Shown here: piece after piece, positions 50,778 to 63,191 of the stretch
How positions within the stretch are numbered: position 1 is the stretch's first letter
Layout: each line of letters starts with the position of its first letter
Virus record (IMG/VR): IMGVR_UViG_3300024262_006558
Location: 186,001 to 250,000 of that record
Direction: 5' to 3' (one strand)
Origin: a virus
DNA length: 64,000 nt
Program-made: the position numbers and the translations under genes
The notes under the pieces: model-generated
What the model was told of the DNA's origin: nothing
Databases searched by the model: none
The model's input: only the letters and a program-made list of their open reading frames with translations

Positions 50778-50822
50778 GGACAAACAACAAGTTTGCCAGT
50801 AAACGAAAAACAAACAAACATT

Positions 50823-51035
50823 ATGAAAAGAGCATTATTTATCGCATTAAAAGAAAACGGTCAAGTTGTAGATTACGTTGATAGCGTAGGGGTAAAGAAC
50901 AGAACCGTTGAAGACCTTATCGAAATGATTGTTGCTAAAGGCGACAAAGTAACCAACATGGTTATTAACAAAGTAAAAACAGCTCCAAAGGAGACTTGGA
51001 ACAAATTGAAAGCGGGATTCGCTAGAGCAAACTAA
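50823..51035 (+). CDS. Hypothetical protein, 70 residues
   Basis: A small basic protein beginning MKRALFIALKENGQVV. I chose the ATG at 50823 for the same reason as in the gene before. Function unknown. Confidence 0.65.
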   Translation: MKRALFIALKENGQVVDYVDSVGVKNRTVEDLIEMIVAKGDKVTNMVINKVKTAPKETWNKLKAGFARAN

Positions 51036-51054
51036 TTGTTTGATTCAAAGATTC

Positions 51055-51080
51055 GGGGACTTGTTCCCCTTTCTTTTTGT
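51055..51080 (+). terminator. Terminator
   Basis: GGGGA pairs with TCCCC, with a T-rich tail. The stretch TGTTTGATTCA before it also precedes the terminators at 52190 and 59801. Confidence 0.65.
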
Positions 51081-51085
51081 TTGTG

Positions 51086-51118
51086 CATCTCTGAGTTTTT
51101 CCGCATCTTCGTAAACCT
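51086..51118 (+). repeat. CCGCA-CGTAAACC intergenic element, copy 6
   Basis: ATCTCTGAGTTTTTCCGCA then TCTTCGTAAACCT; 45 bases before a repeat promoter. Confidence 0.7.
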
Positions 51119-51162
51119 AATCTTTTGTTAACCAGATCCAGGAAAGCTGATCTTTCCCATAA

Positions 51163-51200
51163 GTACATAATATCCCCATGGTCGTATATATTACCGAATC
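51163..51200 (+). promoter_or_regulatory. Repeat promoter copy 16
   Basis: GTACATAATATCCCC, GGTCGTATATATT, ACCGAATC; 12 bases before the ATG at 51213. Here the flanking arms read GGT...ACC in place of the common CACC...GGTG. Confidence 0.85.
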
Positions 51201-51212
51201 AAAAGTAAAAAC

Positions 51213-51545
51213 ATGAACTATTCAAAAAACAATCGTTTAATAGCAGAATTTATGCAAGCGCCATTTTATTCTCCAAATGATTTTGATTTATATAGCACTA
51301 GCGGTTTAAATCATATCTTTAGAGATGTTGAAAGTGATGATGCTAATGCTCAACACTTCTTTAGAGGTGAACAAATGTTATTTCATAATTCATGGGACTG
51401 GTTAATTCCTGTAATACAAAAAATTAAAGAGATTGATTCTTCTATTGGTATAGAGCAAAGGCTTAATCCTTTTACTTACAACTTAGATTCTGTTTATGCT
51501 GGAGTTATTGAGTTCATTAAATCTTATAACCATAAAAGTACATAA
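51213..51545 (+). CDS. Hypothetical protein, 110 residues
   Basis: A soluble helical protein with many Asn, Phe and Tyr. No family recognised; it ends in the next promoter. Confidence 0.65.
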   Translation: MNYSKNNRLIAEFMQAPFYSPNDFDLYSTSGLNHIFRDVESDDANAQHFFRGEQMLFHNSWDWLIPVIQKIKEIDSSIGIEQRLNPFTYNLDSVYAGVIEFIKSYNHKST

Positions 51546-51575
51546 TTTCCCCCGTACCGTATATATTGGTGAATT
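51538..51575 (+). promoter_or_regulatory. Repeat promoter copy 17
   Basis: GTACATAATTTCCCCC, ACCGTATATATT, GGTGAATT; 15 bases before the ATG at 51591. It overlaps the 3' end of the preceding gene. Confidence 0.85.
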
Positions 51576-51590
51576 TAAACAAAGCATATT

Positions 51591-52163
51591 ATGAAAACTA
51601 TTGAACTATCAAATAATCGAGTATTAAAGATTGAGCAAGATACAGATTTAGAAAGTCCACGTAATTGGGATAACTTAGCTAAAATGATTTTCTTTGGCAA
51701 GTATTCTCATTTAGGAGATAGTCACGAGATTAACAGTAGAGACTATGAAAGTTTTGAAGAAGTTGAAGCTGCAATCAAAAGAAAGTATAATGTAGCTTGC
51801 ATTAAAAAAATATATGGTTATTCGCATGGTGGATTAACAATAGCAACAACGCCTTTCTCTTGCTCTTGGGATAGTGGAGTTTTAGGATTTGCTATTATCA
51901 CAAAAGAAGACCTTAGAGAAAATTACTCTATCAAAAGAGTAACAAAACAATATGTTAAAAAAGGAAATGGGCATATTGAAGGTGAAGTAAAAACATTAGA
52001 TCAATTCATTAGCGGTGACGTTTACGGCTTCACGCTAGAGAAAGAGGGCGAATATGAAGATTCATGTTGGGGGTTCTATGGGGACAACGTATTAGAAAAT
52101 GGTATGCTTGACCACATAACCGAAGAAGTAAGTGAAGAAATTAAAAAAGCCTTAGCGGCTTAA
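51591..52163 (+). CDS. Hypothetical protein, 190 residues
   Basis: A mixed alpha/beta protein with a Gly- and aromatic-rich middle and an acidic C-terminal helix. No family recognised. Confidence 0.65.
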   Translation: MKTIELSNNRVLKIEQDTDLESPRNWDNLAKMIFFGKYSHLGDSHEINSRDYESFEEVEAAIKRKYNVACIKKIYGYSHGGLTIATTPFSCSWDSGVLGFAIITKEDLRENYSIKRVTKQYVKKGNGHIEGEVKTLDQFISGDVYGFTLEKEGEYEDSCWGFYGDNVLENGMLDHITEEVSEEIKKALAA

Positions 52164-52189
52164 AAAGAATTGTGTTTGATTCAAGAACT

Positions 52190-52213
52190 AAGGGGCGAAA
52201 GTCCCTTTTTTCT
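52190..52213 (+). terminator. Rho-independent terminator with GAAA loop
   Basis: AAGGGGC-GAAA-GTCCCTT followed by a T run. Confidence 0.8.
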
Positions 52214-52221
52214 TTTTCTTG

Positions 52222-52254
52222 TTTCTCTGAGTTTTTCCGCATTTTCGTATACCT
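52222..52254 (+). repeat. CCGCA-CGTAAACC intergenic element, copy 7
   Basis: TTTCTCTGAGTTTTTCCGCA then TTTTCGTATACCT; 62 bases before a repeat promoter. Confidence 0.7.
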
Positions 52255-52315
52255 AGGTTTTAAATTCAAGTTTCCATTTTGGCAACAAAAAGCAAAAAAT
52301 TTCGTTATAGTAAAA

Positions 52316-52353
52316 GTACATAGTTTCCCCACCACCGTATATATTGGTGAATC
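52316..52353 (+). promoter_or_regulatory. Repeat promoter copy 18
   Basis: GTACATAGTTTCCCC, ACCGTATATATT, GGTGAATC; 18 bases before the ATG at 52372. Confidence 0.85.
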
Positions 52354-52371
52354 AAAAAACAAATAGAAGTT

Positions 52372-52920
52372 ATGAAAAATGAAGTTAAAAGAATATCGCA
52401 AGAACAATTTATCGCACTTATCAACGGTAGTTCAGATGTAACAATCAACGGTAACACGTTTATCAACATCGAAACAATGACCGCAGTAAGTGATCTTGTT
52501 AAGCCAAAAAGCAATCCTTTTAACGGTGCAATGAAAATGAACATATCAAATGTTCAAATCTTTCAAAACAAAAACGGTTCATCTTATGAAGCGAAAGTTA
52601 AAAGAGAGATGGCGAAAGAGGGTAAAGATCCAGAGTCTTTCGAGTTACAGCCTAGAACGTGGGGCGAAAGAATCAAAAACACTCCATTAGTAATGCACAA
52701 AGGAGAATTTTACTTGGAAGTTATGTTTAACTCACAAGTGGGAGCAACAAAATTCTTCCACGAAGGAAAAGAAATTTCAGCCGAAACTTTAAAGCCTCAT
52801 AGAAGAATAAAGGTAGAAGGTAAGCAAGGAGGATTAGAAAACAAAGTAATCATTAGAACTTACAAAGTAGCTTCTATTCAATCAATCACTATCGCAAAAC
52901 AAAAGTATGTGATAATGTAA
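52372..52920 (+). CDS. Hypothetical protein, 182 residues
   Basis: A basic, soluble protein with a helical start (VKRISQEQFIALIN) and beta-rich C-terminal half with repeated Lys. Nucleic-acid binding is possible by charge; no family recognised. Confidence 0.65.
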   Translation: MKNEVKRISQEQFIALINGSSDVTINGNTFINIETMTAVSDLVKPKSNPFNGAMKMNISNVQIFQNKNGSSYEAKVKREMAKEGKDPESFELQPRTWGERIKNTPLVMHKGEFYLEVMFNSQVGATKFFHEGKEISAETLKPHRRIKVEGKQGGLENKVIIRTYKVASIQSITIAKQKYVIM

Positions 52921-52924
52921 AAAC

Positions 52925-52956
52925 AAAAAAGGAACTTTAATTAGTTCCTTTTTTTT
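52925..52956 (+). terminator. Rho-independent terminator
   Basis: AAAGGAACT pairs with AGTTCCTTT, followed by eight T. Confidence 0.85.
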
Positions 52957-52963
52957 GCTTGTT

Positions 52964-52997
52964 GTTTCTCTGAATTTTTCCGCAACTGCGTAAACCT
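52964..52997 (+). repeat. CCGCA-CGTAAACC intergenic element, copy 8
   Basis: TTTCTCTGAATTTTTCCGCA then ACTGCGTAAACCT; 37 bases before a repeat promoter. Confidence 0.7.
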
Positions 52998-53033
52998 AGT
53001 CCACTCCATAGGGAGAGGTGCAGATCACCATTA

Positions 53034-53069
53034 GTACATAATCTCCCCACCACCGTATATATTGTCGAG
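53034..53069 (+). promoter_or_regulatory. Repeat promoter copy 19, overlapping a start codon
   Basis: GTACATAATCTCCCC, ACCGTATATATT, GTCGAGATG. The GAATC end is replaced by the start of the gene at 53070, so no usual leader is left. Confidence 0.75.
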
Positions 53070-53333
53070 ATGAAAAGAAAACTATTCAAATACAAGTATA
53101 CTCGAAGAACTTTCTCTAAGGATGGAAGTTTTTGCACGGAGGAACATACTAGGGAGAGCGACTTTAGCTTAAAAGCTTTTGAGGGAGAGGTTGCTGACTG
53201 GCATCGACAAGGGCAAATGATGAAGCACAGAGACACTCTAAGCGAGATTCAAGGCTATGACTACTTCATCACTAAGGAGCAGGGAGAGTTTAACGAGAGA
53301 GCCTATAAAGTTAGAGTACTAGTAAGTACATAG
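53070..53333 (+). CDS. Protein related to the MRKxFYI family, 87 residues
   Basis: It begins MKRKLFKYKY and carries DWHRQGQMM near residue 45, which matches NWHKQGQMQ of the gene at 36859. It may therefore be an outlying relative placed under a repeat promoter. Leaderless, or the true start is further in. Ends in the next promoter. Confidence 0.6.
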   Translation: MKRKLFKYKYTRRTFSKDGSFCTEEHTRESDFSLKAFEGEVADWHRQGQMMKHRDTLSEIQGYDYFITKEQGEFNERAYKVRVLVST

Positions 53334-53363
53334 TCTCCCCATGGTCGTATATATTGGTGAATC
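53326..53363 (+). promoter_or_regulatory. Repeat promoter copy 20
   Basis: GTACATAGTCTCCCC, GGTCGTATATATT, GGTGAATC; 14 bases before the ATG at 53378. Confidence 0.85.
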
Positions 53364-53377
53364 TAAATAAAGGAATC

Positions 53378-53545
53378 ATGTATCAAAAACAATATGCAGA
53401 TAGAAGATTGGAATCTTTGATTAAAAGTCACATAGGAGCATCTGACTCTTATATAGAAGCGGTTGCTTGGGCTAGTTTTAGCGGAACTCATAGTATTACT
53501 GAAATAGCAAATGAGGTAGCTAGATTAAAAAAATGTCATTCATGA
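53378..53545 (+). CDS. Hypothetical protein, 55 residues
   Basis: A small helical protein starting MYQKQYADRRLESL. I chose the ATG at 53378 after the promoter. It overlaps the next gene by 13 bases. Confidence 0.6.
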   Translation: MYQKQYADRRLESLIKSHIGASDSYIEAVAWASFSGTHSITEIANEVARLKKCHS

Positions 53546-53868
53546 AAAACATTATAATCATAGGAGCTGTAAGCGTTAGTCAATCAGTCCATATAATGAA
53601 TGTATTGGCTGGTATGGATACGGATATTTCTATTGTCGTAAACGCTAAAGGCGGCATGATGCAAAACTTCATGGATATGGAGAGAGGAACGAGTCTTTCA
53701 TCTCTTAAGTTTGATGTCACAAAAGATTATTGTTTAGAAGATATTCCCGAATTTGAATATGAAAAGATTGGAGACCGTAAACAGTTAACCTCAAAGCAGC
53801 GTAAAAATAGAAAAGCTAAAAGAAGGCAAGTAAAGCAGTCAAGGAATTTTATGCACAAAAGTACATAG
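53533..53868 (+). CDS. Hypothetical protein, 111 residues
   Basis: A hydrophobic strand start (MKNIIIIGAVSVSQS) leads to a very basic C-terminus (KQRKNRKAKRRQVKQ). Likely nucleic-acid-binding by charge. An alternative start is ATG 53542. Confidence 0.6.
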   Translation: MSFMKNIIIIGAVSVSQSVHIMNVLAGMDTDISIVVNAKGGMMQNFMDMERGTSLSSLKFDVTKDYCLEDIPEFEYEKIGDRKQLTSKQRKNRKAKRRQVKQSRNFMHKST

Positions 53869-53898
53869 TCTCCCCATCACCGTATATATTAGTGAATC
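53861..53898 (+). promoter_or_regulatory. Repeat promoter copy 21
   Basis: GTACATAGTCTCCCC, ACCGTATATATT, AGTGAATC; 16 bases before the ATG at 53915. It overlaps the end of the preceding gene. Confidence 0.85.
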
Positions 53899-53914
53899 GA
53901 AAAACAAGACACAA

Positions 53915-54259
53915 ATGGAAAGTTCAGCATCTTATACGCATTTACCTTTAGCATCATTAGAAAGCTTATTACAAACGGCTTTAAAATCAGAGAATTATAA
54001 GAAGGCTCACCATGTGCAAAAAGCAATGGAGCATAACTTACTACATTCAACTATATCTTTCACTAAGAATGGAGATATGATATTGACTCCCGCATTTGAA
54101 GAGGTTGTTGAGTACTGGTTGAATGGTAAGGTTATTTTAAGAGAAAGCGTTGATGGGTCAAGTGTTGAATCCGTTGGATTAACTAGAGGGTTATTAGCTT
54201 TTGAGAATGAAGTTAGAGAAACTGAAATTAGTATCAACGTAAACATGAGGAGGGTATAA
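53915..54259 (+). CDS. Hypothetical protein, 114 residues
   Basis: A helical N-terminal half (LASLESLLQTALKSENYKKA) and a beta C-terminal half. No family recognised. The next gene begins 2 bases after its stop. Confidence 0.65.
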   Translation: MESSASYTHLPLASLESLLQTALKSENYKKAHHVQKAMEHNLLHSTISFTKNGDMILTPAFEEVVEYWLNGKVILRESVDGSSVESVGLTRGLLAFENEVRETEISINVNMRRV

Positions 54260-54261
54260 TT

Positions 54262-54729
54262 ATGAATCATTTATCATTAGCAACAGTAGCAGCAATCATA
54301 TCGGATACAATCATAAAAAAGTTGTATAAGCACGTTCAGAAAAACATTGGAGAAGGTTATATCTATACGGTTGACCTTATTGGTCAATGGGCGGTGGAGT
54401 TTGAAACTAAGTATGGAGAGGTAGATTGGGAGGATTTCCAAATGAATCCTACTAAGTACGGATTTGATGAAAGTCATTGTGCATGGGATGATGCGGTTAT
54501 GTCATTCGCTAAAAAGAAATTTAAAGAGTTAAAGGGAGAGGTTGAGAAAGAGGTAAATGAGTTTACCCCTGTTCCCAAAGAAGAAAGAAGCTTAACGCAT
54601 TGTGTATGTCCTAAATGCGACAAGAAACATGAGTACACAAAGTACGCTTTGGCTCAAATGGCTTCGGGCGTTCATTTAAAGAAGGCTTGTGATTGTGGAA
54701 AGAATATTGTAATAGCACCATTTAAGTAG
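54262..54729 (+). CDS. Hypothetical protein with zinc-ribbon-like C-terminus, 155 residues
   Basis: A helical N-terminal part is followed by CVCPKCDKKHEYTKY and CDCGKNI near residues 118-150, two Cys pairs that could bind zinc. Function unknown. Confidence 0.65.
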   Translation: MNHLSLATVAAIISDTIIKKLYKHVQKNIGEGYIYTVDLIGQWAVEFETKYGEVDWEDFQMNPTKYGFDESHCAWDDAVMSFAKKKFKELKGEVEKEVNEFTPVPKEERSLTHCVCPKCDKKHEYTKYALAQMASGVHLKKACDCGKNIVIAPFK

Positions 54730-54737
54730 GGAGAGTT

Positions 54738-54911
54738 ATGGAAAGATTAGGCTACTATGCAAAAGATGTTGAAGACAATTTGTTTCAATTCAAATGGGGA
54801 GAGGATGATAAATTCTATATCTTCAAGAATCAAAAGTATCATTTAGATAATCCTAATAACTATGTGATATTAGAGGTAGGTTTCTTTACGGCTGATAATC
54901 CAAGTACATAA
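54738..54911 (+). CDS. Hypothetical protein, 57 residues
   Basis: Begins MERLGYYAKDVEDN after a GGGAG purine site. The stop is the TAA in GTACATAA of the next promoter, so promoter and stop share bases. Confidence 0.6.
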   Translation: MERLGYYAKDVEDNLFQFKWGEDDKFYIFKNQKYHLDNPNNYVILEVGFFTADNPST

Positions 54912-54941
54912 TATCCCCATCACCGTATATATTGTTGAATC
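54904..54941 (+). promoter_or_regulatory. Repeat promoter copy 22
   Basis: GTACATAATATCCCC, ACCGTATATATT, TTGAATC; 18 bases before the ATG at 54960. Confidence 0.85.
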
Positions 54942-54959
54942 AAAAAACAAACAAACATT

Positions 54960-55355
54960 ATGGAAAAGCATTTAGTAACAATTGAGTTCAGATATTCAAG
55001 TGCTCCCGATAAATTCGATTCTACTAGTCAAGACAAAGTAGTGACAATAGGGGTTTATGACGATTTTGATGAAGCTTGTAAAGAGGGAAACAAAGCCCTT
55101 GAATTACTTGAGAGTAAATTTGACATTCATACTTTCCCTCAAGGAAATAAGGCTAAAAAAGAAAGATTTAGTAAAAATGGCGGTTGCTTTGGAAGTAAGA
55201 ACACCTTAGTTTCAAACTTGGCTTATTTGAAAACACCATTTCAGTTTTTTGCAAAGATAGAAACATTAAAGCTTGATTCGTTAGAGGATGCAGTTAATGA
55301 AGTAGTTGATTCTGTAAAAGGATATAGAAAATATAAAGCCTCAATTGAGGATTAG
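54960..55355 (+). CDS. Hypothetical protein, 131 residues
   Basis: A soluble alpha/beta protein (strand, DDFDEACKEGNKALELLE helix, strands). No family recognised. Its TAG begins the next promoter. Confidence 0.65.
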   Translation: MEKHLVTIEFRYSSAPDKFDSTSQDKVVTIGVYDDFDEACKEGNKALELLESKFDIHTFPQGNKAKKERFSKNGGCFGSKNTLVSNLAYLKTPFQFFAKIETLKLDSLEDAVNEVVDSVKGYRKYKASIED

Positions 55356-55392
55356 TACATAGTTTCCCCATCACCGTATATATTTTTGAATA
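55355..55392 (+). promoter_or_regulatory. Repeat promoter copy 23
   Basis: GTACATAGTTTCCCC, ACCGTATATATT, TTGAATA; 15 bases before the ATG at 55408. Last phage promoter before cassette cluster A. Confidence 0.85.
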
Positions 55393-55407
55393 GAAACAAA
55401 AGCAATC

Positions 55408-55599
55408 ATGAAAAAGCAATTTAGAAAAACTTGGAGACACGAAGTAATTATTGAAGCTGAAACAAAAGAAGAAGCACAACAGATGTGGGAAAGTATTTCA
55501 CTTGGTAAACTTGACAAAGAAGTAGCTGATGGAGAAATATATTCACACGAATTTGTGGAGAACGTTTCTTTTGAAGATGAAAACTACGATGATGTATAA
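55408..55599 (+). CDS. Hypothetical protein, 63 residues
   Basis: A small protein of strand-helix-strand type (WRHEVIIEAETKEEAQQMW). The first attC-like site begins 2 bases after its stop, so cassette cluster A was joined right behind it and its transcript may run into the cassettes. Confidence 0.65.
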   Translation: MKKQFRKTWRHEVIIEAETKEEAQQMWESISLGKLDKEVADGEIYSHEFVENVSFEDENYDDV

Positions 55600-55600
55600 T

Positions 55601-55699
55601 GGCATACAACGGCTTGGATATGCACCGTAAAGCGTAGCACAATGTTTAATCTTAACACTTCACTATCACGCTTAATGGTGTATAGGTTGTGTTAGCAAA
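55601..55699 (+). other. attC-like site A1
   Basis: R'' core CATACAAC at 55603-55610; R' core GTTAGCAAA at 55691-55699. Inner stems: TATGCACC with GGTGTATA, and AAGCGT with ACGCTT. First site of cluster A. Confidence 0.7.
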
Positions 55700-55710
55700 T
55701 CGTTTTAATT

Positions 55711-55956
55711 ATGGAATTTAGGGAAGAAACAATACAAGAATTTAACTCATACAGAGATACAACATTAACAGAAGATATGACTTTTGCAGACGCAGTTGAA
55801 AATATTGAAAATGCAAATAATAGTTATTTTTATATTTCACTTAGTCAAAATGATGTTATTGAAGCTATTAATGATGAAAAAGAAATAGCAGAGCAGTTTG
55901 ATTTAGATTTAGTTTACTTGTTACCTCAAGGAATAGCTATTGCATTACAGGTGTAA
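55711..55956 (+). CDS. Cassette A1 protein, 81 residues
   Basis: An acidic protein beginning MEFREETIQEF, with helices and one strand. No family recognised. The cassette starts GTTAGCAAA and ends TTTGCTAAC. It has no repeat promoter of its own. Confidence 0.65.
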   Translation: MEFREETIQEFNSYRDTTLTEDMTFADAVENIENANNSYFYISLSQNDVIEAINDEKEIAEQFDLDLVYLLPQGIAIALQV

Positions 55957-55958
55957 TG

Positions 55959-56024
55959 TTTGCTAACGTTTAGTGTATGGTGTCGTTTGAGGCACGAAAA
56001 TGCACTATACATATTGTTGTGTGT
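55959..56024 (+). other. attC-like site A2
   Basis: TTTGCTAAC (55959-55967) to GTTGTGTGT (56016-56024). GTGTATGGTG pairs with CACTATACAT with G-T pairs. Confidence 0.75.
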
Positions 56025-56056
56025 AGTGCGGAATTTAAAAACTAAACTTGATTAAA

Positions 56057-56236
56057 ATGAAATACAAAAGTAAAACCACAAATAATATTGTAACCGTTAT
56101 TGAAAAAATAGGTGCTGGAATGTGTAGTAAAACATTAGGTATGACTTTAGTTATATTTAAGTTTGAAGACGATTTAGACTTTCATAGAGTAATGGAACAT
56201 AGAGAGTTCTATGCTAAATACGAAGAGGTAGAGTAG
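56057..56236 (+). CDS. Cassette A2 protein, 59 residues
   Basis: A small basic-acidic protein beginning MKYKSKTTNNIV; I chose the ATG at 56057 over a TTG at 56048. Cassette bounded by GTTGTGTGT and ACACACAAC, a perfect 9-base complement. Confidence 0.65.
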   Translation: MKYKSKTTNNIVTVIEKIGAGMCSKTLGMTLVIFKFEDDLDFHRVMEHREFYAKYEEVE

Positions 56237-56240
56237 CATT

Positions 56241-56309
56241 ACACACAACGTTTTGGCTATGTGCTGAACGTAGAGCAACGGAGTTTTGCATATAGGTAGT
56301 GTTATATGC
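56241..56309 (+). other. attC-like site A3
   Basis: ACACACAAC (56241-56249) to GTTATATGC (56301-56309). GCTATGTGC pairs with GCATATAG. Confidence 0.75.
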
Positions 56310-56336
56310 TTTTATTAACAATTAAAATTAAACAAG

Positions 56337-56915
56337 ATGAAAATATTATTTCAAAGAGAAAGTGAAAACCTTAACTGTATTGTTTCTTGTAAAGACAATT
56401 CAAGAATAGAGACACCAAATGAGAGTAAGAGTTTATTGAATGAGAATGATTTATATGAAATTGCAAAATGGGGATTAGAAGGTGAATATTCATCGAGTGG
56501 GTGTTGGGATGATACTGATAATCTTGAAGATGCTATAAAATGTGCTGTTGAAGATTTTAAACTGTTTTTATCAAAACCATATCCGATTGAATTGGGTAAC
56601 ATACCAAATAATCCAATAATATATAGATTAGTTAGATTAAAAAACATAAATGACCTAAGAAAAAACGAATTAGGTAATAGTTGGTTTTCAAATCCAAACC
56701 AAATCCACGAAGAAGGGTTTTTTCAGATGTTAGATTATTTAAAACCGTTTAAAAATAAAGATGGTCAAGTTTATATAATCAAAGGACAGATAAATAAAGA
56801 CAATATTGATATGAAAAGAACTTTATGGGAACGAAGCACACAGTGGTGGGAAAACGAAATAGTGGTAATTGATGATTCCAACATAAAAATAATTTCAATC
56901 GAAGCACTATCTTAG
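56337..56915 (+). CDS. Cassette A3 protein, 192 residues, possibly ADP-ribosyltransferase-like
   Basis: The C-terminal 110 residues loosely follow an R-S-E pattern of ADP-ribosyltransferase folds: IIYRLVRL near 97, LGNSWFS near 116, and WWENEIVVID near 172. The N-terminal 85 residues look like a separate helical part. The assignment is weak and rests on order of motifs only. Its cassette is the one that does not show complementary ends. Confidence 0.5.
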   Translation: MKILFQRESENLNCIVSCKDNSRIETPNESKSLLNENDLYEIAKWGLEGEYSSSGCWDDTDNLEDAIKCAVEDFKLFLSKPYPIELGNIPNNPIIYRLVRLKNINDLRKNELGNSWFSNPNQIHEEGFFQMLDYLKPFKNKDGQVYIIKGQINKDNIDMKRTLWERSTQWWENEIVVIDDSNIKIISIEALS

Positions 56916-56920
56916 TATTG

Positions 56921-57050
56921 GTGCTAACGTTTAGTATAAGATTAGTTGCGATTAATAGCACTCACCTACGCAAACTACAACAGTTGATTAAAAGTAAAAT
57001 GATTAAATAACCAAACAACGTAGCAATTAATTTTATACGTTGTTATAAAT
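56921..57050 (+). other. attC-like site A4 (long form)
   Basis: GTGCTAAC (56921-56928) to GTTATAAAT (57042-57050), 130 bases. AGTATAAGATTAGTTGC pairs with GCAATTAATTTTATAC. The long inner loop makes it the largest site. Confidence 0.65.
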
Positions 57051-57061
57051 CTGTAAAAATT

Positions 57062-57244
57062 ATGGAATGGATAGTAGTACCAAAGATTGGATTTAAACAT
57101 AAAATTGGTAACATGATATGTGGATTATTAAAAGTGATTGATGGATTGATTATGGTAATTTCATTCGGAAATTTAGCAACCAATTTTTGTTTAAATTTTA
57201 CAATAGTTAGAAAAAGGCACAACTTTATGTTAGACAATAAATAA
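57062..57244 (+). CDS. Cassette A4 membrane protein, 60 residues
   Basis: Begins MEWIVVPKIGFKHKIG; one or two hydrophobic helices (about 18-42) between basic ends. Cassette bounded by GTTATAAA and TTTATAAC. Confidence 0.6.
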   Translation: MEWIVVPKIGFKHKIGNMICGLLKVIDGLIMVISFGNLATNFCLNFTIVRKRHNFMLDNK

Positions 57245-57253
57245 TTTTTATTG

Positions 57254-57320
57254 TTTATAACACGAAAATAAAGATAAGCGTTAAGCGACCCGAAGGGTTA
57301 TCTTTTATTTTCTGTTATGA
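57254..57320 (+). other. attC-like site A5 with the shared hairpin
   Basis: TTTATAAC then a stem GAAAATAAAGATAA with TTATCTTTTATTTTC, then GTTATGA. The same hairpin follows two other cassettes (58319, 63085). It would also end transcription. Confidence 0.7.
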
Positions 57321-57390
57321 TCTGATAGTCCAAGTACATAGTCTCCCCATCACCGTATATATTGGTGATGGGGAAACAGAAAAATGGTAA
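57259..57390 (+). repeat. 132-base direct repeat, left copy
   Basis: Identical to 58325-58456. It contains the shared hairpin, GTTATGATC, a repeat promoter and the AAACAGAAAAATGGTAA stretch. The two copies flank cassettes A5 and A6. Confidence 0.9.
57334..57373 (+). promoter_or_regulatory. Repeat promoter copy 24 (perfect palindrome form)
   Basis: GTACATAGTCTCCCC and GTATATATT as usual, but the end reads GGTGATGGGG, giving a perfect 10-bp inverted repeat (CCCCATCACC, 57345-57373). 68 bases before the ATG at 57442. Confidence 0.8.
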
Positions 57391-57441
57391 TGGGTTATAC
57401 ATTGTGTTATAGCCTTTTAATTAACAATTAAATAAACAAAA

Positions 57442-57639
57442 ATGAAAGATTTAGATTTAACAAAAGACCAACACTTAATGAGTATTAGAGTTGATGGGGA
57501 ATGTATAGGACACGTTGAAATAGAGGATGGTAAAATAATTACAAATGGCACAGTAGGAGAAAACACTTACGAGAATTTTGTAGACTTAATATACGGACTA
57601 CAAGGGTTTGGGATAAGTGTAGATGACTTCTTCTTTTAA
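57442..57639 (+). CDS. Cassette A5 protein, 65 residues
   Basis: An acidic beta-rich protein beginning MKDLDLTKDQHL. Its cassette starts GTTATAGCC (57406) and ends GGCTATAAC (57642-57650), a perfect complement. Only the right half of a site precedes it, joined to the phage promoter. Confidence 0.65.
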   Translation: MKDLDLTKDQHLMSIRVDGECIGHVEIEDGKIITNGTVGENTYENFVDLIYGLQGFGISVDDFFF

Positions 57640-57641
57640 TT

Positions 57642-57700
57642 GGCTATAACGGTTAGTATATGAGCCTGTACTTGTATGGCTTATATACATTGTTGTATGC
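57642..57700 (+). other. attC-like site A6
   Basis: GGCTATAAC to GTTGTATGC (57692-57700). TAGTATATGAGCC pairs with GGCTTATATAC with small bulges. Confidence 0.75.
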
Positions 57701-57764
57701 TGGTGCGGTTTTGAAGCACTAATTTTCAAATAATAACTAAAGTAATAATTAAATATTTTGAGCG

Positions 57765-58130
57765 ATGGAAAAACAAAAAAATCAAACAAGTGCAATAAAT
57801 GCACAAGTTGGTGTAAAAAATGCACATACTGAACTAATCGGAAATTCCGAACAGTTGAACTTTACAAAAGGCGAATGGAAAGCCGAAAGAAAATCAGAAA
57901 ACCAAACTTGCCACTTAGTAAAAACAGGCGCTAAATACACTATTCACGTGTACGACTCTAAATATGGGATAGAAGAGTCTGAAAGTTGGCAAAATGCTAA
58001 ATTAATAGCAAAAGCACCTAATTTGCTGGAAATGCTAAAAAAAGTAACTGATGAATTAGAATTTTACGCAGGGAATGAAATTATAAAACACCCACTTATA
58101 AATGAATCAAGAAATTTAATGAAATTATGA
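57765..58130 (+). CDS. Cassette A6 protein, 121 residues
   Basis: The C-terminal pattern TKGEWKAE ... NAKLIAKAPNLLEMLKKV is typical of small proteins in Bacteroidota phages and prophages of unknown function. Its TGA overlaps the start of the next small gene, so this is the only two-gene cassette. Confidence 0.7.
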   Translation: MEKQKNQTSAINAQVGVKNAHTELIGNSEQLNFTKGEWKAERKSENQTCHLVKTGAKYTIHVYDSKYGIEESESWQNAKLIAKAPNLLEMLKKVTDELEFYAGNEIIKHPLINESRNLMKL

Positions 58131-58246
58131 AAAACTTTATAACAAAAGCAAATGAGTTGAAAGTTAGTTATTCAACACTATACAAACTAATTTTAGGAAA
58201 AGAAATTGAGTGTATATTAGTTTGTGGTAGGTATTATTTTAATTAA
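58127..58246 (+). CDS. Excisionase-like small HTH protein, 39 residues
   Basis: ANELKVSYSTLYKLILGK ... VCGRYYFN matches the outline of AlpA/excisionase-type winged helix proteins (A-x-x-L-x-V-S-x-x-T-L-Y and a GRY end). It could regulate or assist recombination; very short, so caution. ATGA overlap with the gene before. Confidence 0.5.
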   Translation: MKNFITKANELKVSYSTLYKLILGKEIECILVCGRYYFN

Positions 58247-58318
58247 GAGCGAGGGCAAAAATATTTAATTATGGTATTAGAAGCACTAAACTTGAATATT
58301 AGCACTAATGTAGCACTT

Positions 58319-58386
58319 GCATACAACACGAAAATAAAGATAAGCGTTAAGCGACCCGAAGGGTTATCTTTTATTTTCTGTTATGA
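58319..58386 (+). other. attC-like site A7 with the shared hairpin
   Basis: GCATACAAC (58319-58327), complementary to the cassette start GTTGTATGC at 57692, then the shared hairpin and GTTATGA. Confidence 0.7.
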
Positions 58387-58456
58387 TCTGATAGTCCAAG
58401 TACATAGTCTCCCCATCACCGTATATATTGGTGATGGGGAAACAGAAAAATGGTAA
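58325..58456 (+). repeat. 132-base direct repeat, right copy
   Basis: Identical to 57259-57390. Confidence 0.9.
58400..58439 (+). promoter_or_regulatory. Repeat promoter copy 25 (perfect palindrome form)
   Basis: Identical to copy 24. No gene begins within 300 bases downstream. Confidence 0.75.
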
Positions 58457-58648
58457 AGCGTTATATGGATTGTATCTATATAACTAACGTGGGGAAATAA
58501 ATAGACGACTGATTTGAGTACTTGAAAAAGTTTAAAAGATTCCTAAGATGTTGGAATATCATAAAAAACTCTGTTAACTGTTGGGCAGTCGAGCCAATTG
58601 CGTCTATAACGTAGTATTGTTGAATACAATCTGTCCCAATTACCTAGG
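58457..58648. other. Non-coding region with long-range base pairing
   Basis: GTTATATGG (58460) and CTATATAAC (58476-58484) are complementary at 8 of 9, like a cassette without a gene. Further on, ATAGACG (58501-58507) pairs with CGTCTAT (58601-58607), and ACTG with CAGT inside. It may be a worn attC-like remnant or a structured RNA driven by promoter copy 25. No gene seen. Confidence 0.45.
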
Positions 58649-58680
58649 AAGTCTGATTAATTTCAGGCTTTCTTTTTTTA
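58649..58680 (+). terminator. Rho-independent terminator
   Basis: AAGTCTGA pairs with TCAGGCTT (one G-T), followed by a T run. Confidence 0.65.
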
Positions 58681-58686
58681 TATTTG

Positions 58687-58719
58687 TTTCTCTGACTTTT
58701 TCCGCAACTGCGTAAACCG
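58687..58719 (+). repeat. CCGCA-CGTAAACC intergenic element, copy 9
   Basis: TTTCTCTGACTTTTTCCGCA then ACTGCGTAAACCG; 36 bases before a repeat promoter. Confidence 0.7.
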
Positions 58720-58754
58720 ATCGATTATATTCCCTGGAGGAACCAATCAACAAA

Positions 58755-58792
58755 GTACATAATATCCCCATCACCGTATATATTGGTGAATC
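58755..58792 (+). promoter_or_regulatory. Repeat promoter copy 26
   Basis: GTACATAATATCCCC, ACCGTATATATT, GGTGAATC; 13 bases before the ATG at 58806. Confidence 0.85.
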
Positions 58793-58805
58793 TAAACTTA
58801 AAGAC

Positions 58806-59228
58806 ATGAAAGACTTATTTGAACATTACGAAGAAATGCCTAGCCACCTTACCGCTATTTGCGATAAGTGGACAGAGAAGCATTTGGATGAAGGTTTAAG
58901 TTACATTGACTGTGCAGACTTCCTAAAAGAATTGGAAGCGATTGGATATACTTTCGAGTATGGTTTGGATGCAGAGCCGTATGGATTAGTTGAAATTTCT
59001 AAAAAGAAAGTATTTGTTTACTTGGCAAAACTTGGAGTTGTGGTAAGTACAGATGAAAATGGAGAAACGGAGGTTCAAAGAATTGACAGTCCCGAAGAGT
59101 TTAGAGATGACAACGAATTGTTTTTGGATTTCACTCCTCCATTATTGGAGAGCGACCAAGAAGCAAAAGACATTTATAATAGCATCACGCATTCAATGTG
59201 GATTCATTTAACTGGAGACAAAACGTAA
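58806..59228 (+). CDS. Hypothetical acidic protein, 140 residues
   Basis: Helical, acidic, with a DEGLSYIDCADFLKELEAIGYTFEYGLD segment typical of small phage proteins of unknown role. Confidence 0.65.
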   Translation: MKDLFEHYEEMPSHLTAICDKWTEKHLDEGLSYIDCADFLKELEAIGYTFEYGLDAEPYGLVEISKKKVFVYLAKLGVVVSTDENGETEVQRIDSPEEFRDDNELFLDFTPPLLESDQEAKDIYNSITHSMWIHLTGDKT

Positions 59229-59231
59229 AAG

Positions 59232-59269
59232 TACATAATATCCCCGCCACCGTATATATTGGTGAATCT
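59232..59269 (+). promoter_or_regulatory. Repeat promoter copy 27
   Basis: GTACATAATATCCCC, ACCGTATATATT, GGTGAATC; 14 bases before the ATG at 59284. Confidence 0.85.
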
Positions 59270-59283
59270 AAACAAAGGAAATT

Positions 59284-59781
59284 ATGAAAACTATAAAAGT
59301 AAGACACTACAACGGAACGGAATTACAAGTTAGTCTTGGAGATGTTATAATAGGCGAAGGTACTATGGGAACATCAAAAGGTAGAGATGTAACTGGGGTA
59401 GTTCACAAAATAGAAGTAGGTAACATCACGTTGAAAAGAGGTAACACTTTACACTTGGTAGACCACACGACTTTAAAAGTTGCTCAAATGAGAGAAAACA
59501 ACTTTGAAGTGTATACTAAGAATCCGAAAACGGGTGAAGAAGGTTGGGAAATTGAAATGGTATCGGTAATAGCATATAGTACATATCACGCTAGGCAGAT
59601 ATTGAAGAAGTGGAATTTGTTTGACGAAGTTATCTTGTTTAATTTCTCTGCTCCACTCGCAGAATCTAACGAAGCAGGATTGTACACTTTAAATGAAACG
59701 ATGAAAGCAGTAGAAGGTACAATTCTTGAAACGGATTACCACAACAAATATTATAAACCATTAGCACACATTAAAGCATAA
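59284..59781 (+). CDS. Hypothetical protein, 165 residues
   Basis: A beta-rich N-terminal half and a helical C-terminal half. No family recognised. Confidence 0.65.
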   Translation: MKTIKVRHYNGTELQVSLGDVIIGEGTMGTSKGRDVTGVVHKIEVGNITLKRGNTLHLVDHTTLKVAQMRENNFEVYTKNPKTGEEGWEIEMVSVIAYSTYHARQILKKWNLFDEVILFNFSAPLAESNEAGLYTLNETMKAVEGTILETDYHNKYYKPLAHIKA

Positions 59782-59800
59782 GTGTTTGATTCAGAAATTT

Positions 59801-59824
59801 AGAGGGCGAGAGTCCTCTATTTTT
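59801..59824 (+). terminator. Terminator
   Basis: AGAGG pairs with CCTCT, followed by T residues; preceded by TGTTTGATTCA as at 51036 and 52174. Confidence 0.65.
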
Positions 59825-59831
59825 CGTTATT

Positions 59832-59864
59832 GATTTCTCTGAGTTTTTCCGCAGCTGCGTAAAC
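59832..59864 (+). repeat. CCGCA-CGTAAACC intergenic element, copy 10
   Basis: TTTCTCTGAGTTTTTCCGCA then GCTGCGTAAACCA; followed by GATCGGA...TCCGATC and then a repeat promoter 41 bases on. Confidence 0.7.
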
Positions 59865-59905
59865 CATACGATCGGAATCCCTGGAGGATCCGATCATGCA
59901 ACAAA

Positions 59906-59943
59906 GTACATAGTTTCCCCGTTAGTGTATATATTACTGAATC
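59906..59943 (+). promoter_or_regulatory. Repeat promoter copy 28
   Basis: GTACATAGTTTCCCC, AGTGTATATATT, ACTGAATC; 12 bases before the ATG at 59956. The arms read AGT...ACT. Confidence 0.85.
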
Positions 59944-59955
59944 AAAAGAATTATA

Positions 59956-60762
59956 ATGAATATCCCAAAAGAACAATTAAAGCGAATAGTGGACTTACTT
60001 AATAGCGATGTCTTTGCGGTAACGTTTAGACTGGAAACGGGTAATAAGTTAGAAACGGCAGAACAAGCCGTTGACGCGCTCTTTGATGGGGTAGTCACTT
60101 TAGAGGATATGTTCTTTTGTAGATTGGACGAGTCATTTAGACACGCAACCCAAGAGGTAAATGATACATGGGAGGATAATATGGAAATGTTTGCTCCAGA
60201 AAACTATCTTCCAAGTGAAAAAACATTACCCGAAGGTGGAGCGTGGATAAAGGTTAGGCATGAAACTGGATACCAATTACATTTTGCAAAGGTTTCAAAT
60301 AGAAAAAGAAGATTTGCCGAAGAGATAAAGAAAGTTTCTCAAACTCTCAATAAAGAGATGGAAAAAGTAAGAGAGTTCAATTGTTCTATGGACAAAGCTG
60401 AAGCTCTCCACAAAAAGATGGACATTCTTTTTGTTTATCATGAGATTGATATTCCTTTATATGAAGTTAGATATCAGAGAACTAAAACAAAAGTCGAATA
60501 TTTAAACCCATTTCAATATGAGATTTGCAGCGATGAAGATTTGCAAATGATATTGGATGCGGTTAGAAAGAAAACCTTTGGCGTTAAGATGAGAAATCTT
60601 TACACGTCAGTAAACAAGGACCAAATCTTTTATTTGAGAAGCAGAGGTATAAGCGAGCAAGAAGCGATGATTATGGCTAACTTGAAACAATGTTACTTTG
60701 ATGTTGATATTATGGGCATGAACGAGGTTTTTAATGAGTCATTCAGACTTGTAAAAGCATAA
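59956..60762 (+). CDS. Hypothetical protein, 268 residues
   Basis: A helical, charged protein with a likely C-terminal UBA-like helix bundle (YLRSRGISEQEAMIMANLKQCYF), seen also in SufB/SufD-like ends. The function is not clear. Confidence 0.65.
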   Translation: MNIPKEQLKRIVDLLNSDVFAVTFRLETGNKLETAEQAVDALFDGVVTLEDMFFCRLDESFRHATQEVNDTWEDNMEMFAPENYLPSEKTLPEGGAWIKVRHETGYQLHFAKVSNRKRRFAEEIKKVSQTLNKEMEKVREFNCSMDKAEALHKKMDILFVYHEIDIPLYEVRYQRTKTKVEYLNPFQYEICSDEDLQMILDAVRKKTFGVKMRNLYTSVNKDQIFYLRSRGISEQEAMIMANLKQCYFDVDIMGMNEVFNESFRLVKA

Positions 60763-60773
60763 CTCTCCCCATA

Positions 60774-60811
60774 GTACATAATATCCCCCGTACCGTATAT
60801 ATTGGTGAATC
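60774..60811 (+). promoter_or_regulatory. Repeat promoter copy 29
   Basis: GTACATAATATCCCCC, ACCGTATATATT, GGTGAATC; 15 bases before the ATG at 60827. Confidence 0.85.
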
Positions 60812-60826
60812 TAAACAAACAAAGTC

Positions 60827-61156
60827 ATGAATATTATAGTTTTCACATTAAACACTAAAGCGAAATCAGAGTACAGAAATGGAAATGGTGAAATTGATCG
60901 CAATGAATATCCAGTTCATATCAAATTAGATACTGATTATTCACATGGTTTTATTTTGAAAATTGAAGACACTCCAGGCTCTTGGCATATGTCTACTCTT
61001 ATGGGTGATCGTTATGGTAATGCATACAATGAAGACAATCAAGTTTTAAGTATTCATGGTACGGAGTGGATGTGCGTTAACATATTTGATTTAATCAAGG
61101 AAGCGAATGAAACGCTAGAAAAAATGGATATGAAAGTAATTCCCGACAATAGATAA
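60827..61156 (+). CDS. Hypothetical protein, 109 residues
   Basis: A beta-rich protein beginning MNIIVFTLNTKAKSEY. No family recognised. Confidence 0.65.
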   Translation: MNIIVFTLNTKAKSEYRNGNGEIDRNEYPVHIKLDTDYSHGFILKIEDTPGSWHMSTLMGDRYGNAYNEDNQVLSIHGTEWMCVNIFDLIKEANETLEKMDMKVIPDNR

Positions 61157-61161
61157 CGGAA

Positions 61162-61199
61162 GTACATAATATCCCCACCACCGTATATATTGGTGAATC
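61162..61199 (+). promoter_or_regulatory. Repeat promoter copy 30
   Basis: GTACATAATATCCCC, ACCGTATATATT, GGTGAATC; 15 bases before the ATG at 61215. Confidence 0.85.
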
Positions 61200-61214
61200 T
61201 AAACAAAACTCATT

Positions 61215-61730
61215 ATGGCAACAGATTATAAAAAATTAGCACTAGAAGCATTAAGTTTCATTAGAGATAACACCGACAACGAAGCTTTTCAAAGCACCGT
61301 TGATGGAACGGAGATTGACATAGATAAAACTATCCAAGAACTTACTCCTATCTTGCCAGATGTTGACTTTACATTATCTCAAATAGTCGAAGGCAAAAGA
61401 CAACTTAATCTAGCATCTCAAATTGTTAAACAAAACATGAAACTTCTTATCATGCACTACATGAAAGAGGCGGGCTTAGAAGAAATAATCATTGAAGATT
61501 TAGATGTTATCCACAGTGATGCAGGAATTTCAGCTGGAGATTATATGGATTCGGTTACTAGAGTCCTAGCAAATGGAGATTACTTCTATACTCACAATGG
61601 CGAAAGAAGCGAAGAAACGGAAGCAGGCGGAATTGAAAGCTTGCCAGTAAATTCTTTAGACAAATTATTAAAAAGATTACAGGATTATAATGGTAGTAAT
61701 TTAGCATTAAGCACAACGCTTACTGTATGA
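61215..61730 (+). CDS. Hypothetical protein, 171 residues
   Basis: A helical, acidic protein with no recognised family. Cassette cluster B begins 27 bases after its stop, so its promoter may also serve the cassettes. Confidence 0.65.
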   Translation: MATDYKKLALEALSFIRDNTDNEAFQSTVDGTEIDIDKTIQELTPILPDVDFTLSQIVEGKRQLNLASQIVKQNMKLLIMHYMKEAGLEEIIIEDLDVIHSDAGISAGDYMDSVTRVLANGDYFYTHNGERSEETEAGGIESLPVNSLDKLLKRLQDYNGSNLALSTTLTV

Positions 61731-61757
61731 TTAGAATTTGAAACTAAATCTTAGTTG

Positions 61758-61823
61758 TTGCTAACGTACCGTATAAGAAGCGTTGAGAGGTACGAACAAT
61801 GATTTTTATACATTGTTATATGC
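61758..61823 (+). other. attC-like site B1
   Basis: TTGCTAAC (61758-61765) to GTTATATGC (61815-61823). GTACC pairs with GGTAC and GTATAA with TTATAC. Confidence 0.75.
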
Positions 61824-61853
61824 TTTTATTAATAACAATTAAAATTAAACAAG

Positions 61854-62102
61854 ATGAAAAAAGTAACCCATTGCATAGTATATAGATTACACAAAGACAA
61901 TTCACCAACTGTAATAGATTGTTCTTCGGAAAAGGAACAAGGTGAACAGTTATCTAAAATAATAAAAGAGGGGTATAAAAATGCGTATAAAGCAACACCT
62001 GAACAAGCTACGAAAGTCTTGAATGATTACGGAAAACAATTTGAACCTAAGCCATTAACACAACAGGAAAGATGGGATAATTGGGCTATAGGTAAAGGGT
62101 AA
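61854..62102 (+). CDS. Cassette B1 protein, 82 residues
   Basis: Begins MKKVTHCIVYRLHKD; strand-helix layout, basic. No family recognised. The leader TTAACAATTAAAATTAAACAAG matches that of cassette A3 almost base for base except for one inserted A/T. Confidence 0.65.
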   Translation: MKKVTHCIVYRLHKDNSPTVIDCSSEKEQGEQLSKIIKEGYKNAYKATPEQATKVLNDYGKQFEPKPLTQQERWDNWAIGKG

Positions 62103-62104
62103 TT

Positions 62105-62166
62105 GCATATAACGAATTGTATATGAGGCGTGAGGAACGAATGACTGCATATACGCTGTTATATGC
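62105..62166 (+). other. attC-like site B2
   Basis: GCATATAAC (62105-62113) to GTTATATGC (62158-62166). GTATATG pairs with CATATAC; the site is 62 bases and compact. Confidence 0.8.
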
Positions 62167-62196
62167 TTTTTTATTAACTAATTAAAACAGATTAAA

Positions 62197-62520
62197 ATGA
62201 TTATAGGATTAATACAAGGAAATAGAGTTGAATTAGGAGAAACTGATAACGGATATGTATACAAAAACAGTTTTGCGTTTGACAAAAAGACTGATGAAAT
62301 ATGTTATATACCAGAGTTAGGGATTGAGGGAGATATAATTACAGAAGACACTTCTGTTTATAGATATTCCGACTTTTTAGAAATAGCTACTGATTATGTA
62401 AAAAGAAATGGGTTAAGTAATACACCTCAAGATATGGCTGAACAATTATTTGAATGTGTTGATTGGCAACATCCAAGTACATTACTTGATGAATGGGAAA
62501 TTCATTTAGAAGATGAGTAA
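62197..62520 (+). CDS. Cassette B2 protein, 107 residues
   Basis: An acidic protein beginning MIIGLIQGNRVELGE, strands then helices. Function unknown. Bounded by GTTATATGC and GCATATAAC. Confidence 0.65.
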   Translation: MIIGLIQGNRVELGETDNGYVYKNSFAFDKKTDEICYIPELGIEGDIITEDTSVYRYSDFLEIATDYVKRNGLSNTPQDMAEQLFECVDWQHPSTLLDEWEIHLEDE

Positions 62521-62522
62521 TT

Positions 62523-62587
62523 GCATATAACGGTTAGTATATGAAATGTGGAGCAAAGCGGAATTTTTTATATACCGTGTTATGCTC
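62523..62587 (+). other. attC-like site B3
   Basis: GCATATAAC (62523-62531) to GTTATGCTC (62579-62587). GGTTAGTATATG pairs with TATATACC. Confidence 0.8.
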
Positions 62588-62604
62588 TTTTAAATTAGAT
62601 AATT

Positions 62605-62760
62605 ATGATAAGTTTTAAATATTACAAGAATTACGGAATTGAATACTGCTTTGGTAGTGCAACTGTACAGGGATTTATGGGTAGACCTCTTAAAACTTTT
62701 ACAGGTGGATGTATAAAGGCAGTAGAAAAAGCAGAAAAGTATATAGATAGCCTTAATTGA
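62605..62760 (+). CDS. Cassette B3 protein, 51 residues
   Basis: Begins MISFKYYKNYGIEY, with GFMGRPLKTFTGGCIKAVEKAEKYID: a strand-strand-helix miniature protein. Its TGA overlaps the GAGCATAAC core, so gene and site share bases. Confidence 0.6.
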   Translation: MISFKYYKNYGIEYCFGSATVQGFMGRPLKTFTGGCIKAVEKAEKYIDSLN

Positions 62761-62825
62761 GCATAACGGTTAGCGTATAGTGACGTGAAACGAAGTGAAA
62801 TGCACTTATACGCCTTGTTGTGGTG
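62759..62825 (+). other. attC-like site B4
   Basis: GAGCATAAC (62759-62767) to GTTGTGGTG (62817-62825). GCGTATAGTG pairs with CACTTATACGC. Confidence 0.8.
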
Positions 62826-62858
62826 AGTACGGGTTATTAACCAATAAATTAAATTGAA

Positions 62859-63080
62859 ATGATACAAGACAAATTAGAAAATCAAATCCATAACGTAATT
62901 ATGGAAACGGCAAGAGAACCTAAACTTATTGTAATGCACCCACAAACATGGGTTGACCTTGCAAAAGAAGTTACTGGCAAAGATGGGATGACAATAAATA
63001 GATACGACCCAAATATGAAGTACAGAGGGATTAAGGTGATTAGAAGTTTGGATTTGTTGGAGGGTGAGTTTGAAATGTAG
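62859..63080 (+). CDS. Cassette B4 protein, 73 residues
   Basis: A small basic protein (LIVMHPQTWVDLAKEVTGKDG ... KYRGIKVIRS) whose pattern resembles the end of some phage capsid-type proteins, but too short to assign. Bounded by GTTGTGGTG and CACCACAAC. Confidence 0.65.
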   Translation: MIQDKLENQIHNVIMETAREPKLIVMHPQTWVDLAKEVTGKDGMTINRYDPNMKYRGIKVIRSLDLLEGEFEM

Positions 63081-63084
63081 TATT

Positions 63085-63153
63085 CACCACAACACGAAAA
63101 TAAAGATAAGCGTTAAGCGACCCGATAGGGTTATCTTTTATTTTCTGTTATCG
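63085..63153 (+). other. attC-like site B5 with the shared hairpin
   Basis: CACCACAAC (63085-63093), then the shared hairpin (loop differs by one inserted base), then GTTATCGG as at 50341. Confidence 0.75.
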
Positions 63154-63191
63154 GTACATAATATCCCCCGTACCGTATATATTGGTGAACT
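63154..63191 (+). promoter_or_regulatory. Repeat promoter copy 31
   Basis: GTACATAATATCCCCC, ACCGTATATATT, GGTGAACT; 14 bases before the ATG at 63206. Confidence 0.85.

Follow-up and report, generated by a model that had tools for sequence, protein, structure and literature searches.

Integrons are defined by the integrase IntI, the attI site and cassettes with bottom-strand attC sites. In canonical integrons the crossover takes place at G^TT of R', and attC travels with the upstream gene (PMC2727003). Clusters of attC sites lacking integron integrases (CALINs) have already been published in phages, including the Polaribacter phage P12002L with methyltransferase cassettes, in which divergent attC directions were also reported (Qi et al. 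2023, PMC9892861). The subject of this work is a 64,000-nucleotide stretch (referred to below as the window) comprising bases 186001-250000 of the 388,594-bp virus record IMGVR_UViG_3300024262_006558, a record which is possibly incomplete. The window contains two arrays of integron-type gene cassettes, cluster A (55.6-58.4 kb) and cluster B (61.76-63.15 kb).

Clusters A and B are very probably integrase-less arrays belonging to a reversed-polarity, integron-like cassette system of Bacteroidota phages and plasmids. They are classed as integrase-less since they share attC bodies with integrase-bearing relatives while the record itself has no recombinase. The resemblance to canonical integrons and CALINs lies in the tandem single-gene units, the AAC..GTT hairpins with L''/L' arms and the complementarity of each unit's own R' and R''; in complete versions of the system there is also a recombinase with a recipient site at one array end, and whole cassettes are gained and lost. 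Methyltransferase cassettes are shared with the published phage CALINs (PMC9892861). Unlike in canonical integrons, the crossover takes place on the R'' side, at AAC, and not at G^TT of R', the attC ahead of a gene is moved with it, the genes point toward the recombinase, the coding strand folds better, the attI-like site is distinct and the recombinase is of the XerA type without the IntI insert. The 'atypical' integrons of Treponema (PMC3607928) share with this system the common direction of transcription of the integrase and cassette genes; in Treponema, however, it is intI that is inverted, whereas here the position and orientation of the recombinase are usual and the inversion, relative to attC, is that of the cassette genes.

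Structure of cluster A

Direct reading of the sequence together with the list of open reading frames (ORFs) showed six consecutive cassettes in cluster A, all with genes on the + strand and separated by imperfect hairpins running from AAC to GTT. The cassettes start (GTT) at 55691, 56016, 56301, 57042, 57406 and 57692, and each contains one ORF except the last, which contains several. In five of the six, the 8-9 bases with which the cassette opens are reverse-complementary to those immediately preceding the next AAC, the matching R'/R'' pairs being GTTAGCAAA/TTTGCTAAC (cassette A1), GTTGTGTGTAGTGC/GCATTACACACAAC, GTTATAAA/TTTATAAC (A4), GTTATAGCC/GGCTATAAC (A5) and GTTGTATGC/GCATACAAC (A6). 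The exception is the cassette at 56301-56928, where R' GTTATATGC does not match R'' GGTGCTAAC. Both the layout of six cassettes and the five complementary pairs had been described in the first-pass annotation of the window and were borne out.

The array begins after the phage gene 55408-55599 with the attC-like site a1 (55608..55693; fold of the gene strand -10.0 vs -7.9 kcal), followed by cassette A1 (55691..55967, ORF 55711-55956, 81 aa). Site a2 (55965..56018) gave the strongest match to the covariance model described below (65.8 bits, E 7e-11) and precedes cassette A2 (56016..56249, ORF 56048-56236 with an internal ATG at 56057), in which R' and R'' agree at 11 of 12 positions. Site a3 (56247..56303, 27.5 bits), 89 % identical in DNA to L008 488-585, leads to the mismatched cassette A3 (56301..56928, ORF 56337-56915). 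Homologues of the 192-aa A3 protein with 62-74 % amino acid identity are encoded in the viral contigs L035-L038 by ordinary non-cassette genes; the cassette genes thus include at least one of phage type. The long-looped site a4 (56926..57044; 22.9 bits, E 0.12), 71 % identical to the array of the Polaribacter phage Danklef, is followed by cassette A4 (57042..57261, ORF 57062-57244, 60 aa) and by the first copy of a terminal, attC-like and terminator-like site, called here the X element (57259..57316, 23.0 bits).

A phage-type promoter of the GTACATAGTCTCCCC..GTATATATTG family, which has about 30 copies in the window, lies behind this copy of X at 57331..57362. Cassette A5 (57406..57650, ORF 57442-57639, 65 aa) comes next, behind a truncated site, and then site a6 (57648..57694; 45.8 bits, E 1e-6, fold z -3.8), which is 85 % identical to the Cellulophaga phage phi13:2, and cassette A6 (57692..58327) with the ORF 57765-58130 and smaller ORFs. 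As a small correction to the first-pass annotation, the last site of the cluster is the second copy of X (58325..58382, fold z -4.0), with a phage promoter at 58397-58430 behind it. No Rfam family reached its gathering score within the window, and no tRNA was found there.

Statistical support for the arrays

A strict cassette unit was defined by agreement of 6/6 R'/R'' bases beyond the core and flanking stems of at least 6. The record contained 12 such units compared with 1.0 per shuffled record, and 11 of the 12 were situated within array loci (the outlier is L006 1695-3231). With stems of at least 7 there were 7 units against 0 in the shuffles, in the 104 kb tested. R'/R'' units so far in excess of shuffled sequence are not a product of chance. 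A covariance model based on 14 sites, all of them from other contigs (L019-L061) and none from this record, was run over the whole record together with three control loci (455 kb in all). At E values of up to 1 there were 18 matches; all those in the 388-kb record fell in arrays and exclusively on the gene strand, the best of them at 55956-56027, and there was none elsewhere in it. The attC-like character ascribed to the cluster A sites in the first-pass annotation was thus recovered by an independent model, and clusters A and B and two other arrays in the record are confirmed as integron-type cassette arrays.

These matches bear on one alternative, namely that the clusters are ordinary phage operons whose intergenic hairpins serve as terminators and have no mobility. 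The GC stem and T-rich run of X in front of phage promoters would agree with it, but the pairing of R' and R'' gene by gene, the covariance-model matches and the presence or absence of cassettes in related phages contradict it, and it is scarcely credible.

Exchange of whole cassettes at AAC of R''

L031 and L032, two of the ten viral contigs that contain the attC body of site a2, show 100 % identity over 609 and 1153 bp apart from one whole methyltransferase cassette. The cassette-less contig retains the downstream attC body, which places the junction at TAAC of R''. Among the Polaribacter phages, Danklef_4 is without exactly the methyltransferase cassette of Danklef_1, and the junction is again at TAAC. 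Freya_1, 2, 5, 7, 8 and 9 were each compared with Freya_10 from the same host; in every case whole units were precisely gained or lost, with an overlap of exactly AAC and a position at or near the site preceding the recombinase gene. The mobility of integron-type cassettes in phages, as proposed in the first-pass annotation, is therefore upheld by the behaviour of relatives. The paper from which the Freya isolates come does not mention integrons or cassettes.

The junctions of whole-cassette gain or loss lay at AAC of R'' in 8 of 8 events (overlap of 3-4 nt). Since all eight events were cut at AAC, the mobile unit consists of the attC body, R', the gene and R''. The polarity is reversed in comparison with canonical cassettes, that is, the attC body moves with the downstream gene, and the canonical integron rule on which the first-pass annotation had relied does not hold here. 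When sites with similar bodies were compared pairwise, leaving out X, identity was 0.70 over the 40 nt following R' and 0.58 over the 40 nt before R'', the background being 0.59 in both cases. When the sites were folded as DNA, the gene strand was the stabler one in 34 of 35 (mean 1.25 kcal, Wilcoxon p 4e-7), and control sites from Vibrio repeats exhibited no strand bias. A G.T wobble at R' position 11 was also considered as evidence for the strand used, but conservation of the ATT of R'' extends to cases in which R' is without AGT, and the argument was rejected for this reason.

A 338-bp stretch, comprising one attC and one cassette, is 100 % identical in two otherwise different viral contigs (L029 4878-5215 and L030 6316-6653). 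It suggests a recent exchange, though its ends are off the attC boundaries.

One might explain such exchanges without a site-specific recombinase, by phage homologous recombination or by template switching between short repeats of the intergenic hairpins, given that phages are mosaic, that the ends of the 338-bp stretch do not coincide with attC and that a duplication of X and its promoter in cluster A (57251/58317, see below) is not bounded by cassettes. Against this stand the confinement of 8/8 junctions to AAC with a 3-4 nt overlap and the fact that every moved unit has its own complementary R' and R''. Such an explanation of the gains and losses is very improbable.

The array-linked recombinase and its attI-like site

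In the Freya phages a 271-aa tyrosine recombinase is encoded directly after the last AAC, and Danklef has an N-terminally truncated copy of it. The best curated family for the Freya protein was the XerA type NF040815 (146 bits), whereas the IntI family TIGR02249 gave 96.5 bits against a cut-off of 265, and the alignment of the protein with IntI4 (2a3v) is interrupted where IntI has its insert. The first relatives of this protein (36-39 % identity), in L057 (a 276-kb contig), L059 and L061, all have cassette arrays immediately upstream, as does the recombinase of phage Leef_1; an XerA-type recombinase directly 3' of the array is thus present in Freya, Leef, L057, L059, L061 and others. Six further recombinases were likewise under the IntI cut-off, and the one encoded on a plasmid was above the XerA cut-off. 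Taken together, the array-linked recombinases scored 92-206 bits with the IntI model, most of the matches being split at the insert, and the catalytic R, K, H, R, H, Y were invariant in seven of them. Best family and structure matches as well as size (about 265 aa) and catalytic residues are those of the simple tyrosine recombinases XerA/XerC/XerD (NF040815; PDB 4a8e; PMC8138268); unlike these, the array-linked enzymes are found at the end of a cassette array with an attI-like site and not with a dif site for dimer resolution.

A profile scan yielded 80 further recombinase loci, of which 63 had enough upstream sequence to be counted. Strict cassette units, at least one per locus, were present upstream of the recombinase in 52 of the 63 (159 units in 224 kb). 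Downstream sequence (234 kb) contained a single unit, at 1 of the 63 loci, and shuffled upstream sequence also contained 1. In most loci the last R'' is followed by AAC and TATWATATATA, at a distance from the start codon that is usually about 49-57 bp; this is an attI-like site. The first-pass annotation had attributed the insertion of cassettes to an integrase from the host or a helper. This did not stand for the array-linked enzyme, which is of the XerA type without the IntI insert and is encoded by the phages and plasmids themselves. The record has no IntI: the best TIGR02249 match reached only E=0.02 at 281.6 kb, and the ORF there is not an integrase.

The X element at the array ends

In the window the arrays end in AAC followed by ACGAAAATAAAG (X), not in AAC followed by TATWATATATA. 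Five identical copies of the 26-nt core of X, ACGAAAATAAAGATAAGCGTTAAGCG, occur in the record (window 57259, 58325 and 63091, L006 6565 and L008 2263), and another is found at L019 3865. Each copy stands directly after the AAC at which the final cassette of its array ends, and opens a hairpin of 58-59 bp that extends to GTT. The cassettes preceding X are all different, with an R'' that in each case fits the cassette to which it belongs. In L019, an unrelated 40-kb phage contig, the array is likewise closed by X, which is present as well in the sister contig L020. The joining of X at AAC to differing cassettes conflicts with the canonical integron crossover at G^TT of R'. X is conserved while the flanks on either side of it are not, its loop stem varies in pairs (CCC/GGG to CTC/GAG), and its GC stem and subsequent T-rich run lie upstream of phage promoters. 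It occupies the attI position without the attI consensus and, from its sequence, looks like an attC doubling as a terminator before the promoters.

The segment 57251-57399 (X and promoter, 149 bp) is a 97 % duplicate of 58317-58465. The first copy of the duplication is fused to a truncated attC, so the fifth cassette, A5, is preceded by a truncated site. The phage promoter itself, GTACATARTNTCCCC-N6-GTATATATTG, is conserved before nearly every gene in window 45400-64000 and in L012; its pattern has 58 matches in the record, 56 of them on one strand, and in the copies at 57331 and 58397 the -10 motif is enclosed by a perfect hairpin, CCCCATCACC/GGTGATGGGG.

Exact-pattern scans of 84,980 bacterial and archaeal species genomes, from which diverged relatives could escape, returned no match either to X or to the common attC body (that of a2); the viral contigs matched numbered 2 and 10, respectively. 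The connection with canonical bacterial integron arrays suggested in the first-pass annotation was accordingly not found. An origin of X by copying from a host attI was also dropped, given the absence of the attI-like consensus from X and of matches in genomes. A further pattern, attC3, had no match in viral contigs, and plasmid blastn searches with cluster A or the L057 array gave none.

These observations also bear on the possibility that the cassettes are canonical ones moved by a host IntI, with their genes antisense by chance, the phages being passive CALIN carriers and the Xer-type neighbour an unrelated phage integrase. The AAC..GTT hairpins and the R'/R'' pairing do constitute integron geometry, and in a laboratory assay IntI1 makes use of attC sites from other phages (PMC9892861). 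However, the genes have the same reversed sense in every array, the Freya gains and losses occur at a site beside a phage-encoded recombinase, cassette units lie upstream rather than downstream of the recombinase (52/63 against 1/63), a fixed attI-like site precedes it, all the recombinases fall under the IntI cut-off, and X and the common attC body are unmatched in the bacterial genomes scanned. Movement by a host IntI is thus unlikely, although it is the least improbable of the alternatives considered.

Cluster B and other arrays in the record

Cluster B contains four cassettes organised as in cluster A, all on the + strand, with matching R'/R'' in 4 of 4. It starts with site b1 (61763..61817, 32.2 bits) and proceeds through cassette B1 (61815..62113, ORF 61854-62102, GTTATATGC/GCATATAAC), site b2 (62111..62160, 31.9 bits), cassette B2 (62158..62531, ORF 62197-62520, also GTTATATGC/GCATATAAC), site b3 (62529..62581, 35.5 bits), cassette B3 (62579..62767, ORF 62605-62760, GTTATGCTC/GAGCATAAC), site b4 (62765..62819, 34.1 bits) and cassette B4 (62817..63093, ORF 62859-63080, GTTGTGGTGA/TCACCACAAC) to the third copy of X (63091..63149, fold z -4.2), behind which a promoter lies at 63151-63184. 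Two more arrays ending in X lie in the record, one on the - strand at about 86.6-89.2 kb of the record (L006 6565-9250) and the other on the + strand, extending to about 122.3 kb (L007 end/L008 1-2322).

Elsewhere in the window, at 21645-26747 and 29581-30444, translations alone point to apparent NAD-salvage enzymes (nicotinamide phosphoribosyltransferase-like, nadD-like and NAD synthase-like) and a sigma-70-like factor.

Plasmid versions of the system

Two Flavobacteriaceae plasmids have 4,899 identical bases starting from AAC followed by TACTGGATATCC before the xerA gene, and differ upstream of this AAC. In one of them, the Flagellimonas plasmid NZ_CP092416, the cassette with erm(F) (R' GTTATGCGGTCGGC, R'' GCTGCCGCATAAC) lies behind one with a dihydrofolate-reductase-family gene, both in reversed polarity beside the XerA-type recombinase (L062 1989-3869). 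The other (L063, identical backbone) has a different sequence at the same AAC. The platform is therefore not restricted to phages.

Discussion

The system is a mirror image of the integron, Xer-type and integron-like in its working, which departs from canonical integrons in the two features tested, the crossover side and IntI, and whose recombinase activity is inferred. In the proposed mechanism a unit made up of the hairpin attC body, R', the gene and R'' would be cut at AAC, and the attC ahead of the gene would be moved with it. In complete versions the array would end at the attI-like site about 50 bp before the XerA-type recombinase gene, and units would be gained and lost there. Most likely the recombinase acts on the folded coding strand of attC and performs the exchange at AAC, after which the genes would point toward attI and the recombinase. 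In the jumbo phage, X is probably both the landing site and the transcription terminator at each array end, and the recombinase may be supplied in trans by a co-resident phage, a plasmid or the host.

Several points weigh against this interpretation. Phage enzymes such as that of Freya could serve mainly another role (lysogeny). No XerA-type recombinase of this family is present in the 388-kb record, and X does not fit the attI-like consensus. In the near-identical sister contig L020 the array at the 86-kb locus is 99.96 % identical and unchanged, so that gain or loss of cassettes in this phage itself was not seen. There is no strict unit upstream in 11 of the 63 recombinase loci; some of the 63 are near-duplicates, and some of the IMG/VR contigs may not be viral. 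The stability of the coding strand could stem from selection on mRNA hairpins and not from DNA folding, and the strand bias is for this reason treated as supporting evidence only.

In the open-access literature searched (subscription papers and preprints being outside its scope), no description was found of reversed-polarity cassettes with an Xer-type integrase and an attI-like site. A broader proposal, which in our estimate has an even chance of being right, is that a second, separately derived kind of integron exists, in which Xer-type recombinases without the IntI insert operate, across the phages and plasmids of Bacteroidota, a platform for cassette capture whose polarity is opposite. Cassettes with methyltransferases, phage genes and even erm(F) would circulate between phages and plasmids, and jumbo phages would keep arrays without an integrase, in which X is the landing site for a recombinase supplied in trans.

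Searches based on IntI would fail to identify such a platform as a complete integron. The presence of the macrolide-resistance gene erm(F) in the plasmid platform of Flavobacteriaceae bears on the spread of resistance in Bacteroidota. Phages would be active owners of cassette platforms and not occasional carriers, as ten cultured isolates from one host differ by whole cassettes beside the recombinase gene. If this interpretation is true, cassette capture would be independent of the IntI insert, and the system would offer a natural comparison for the origin of integrons from Xer recombinases.

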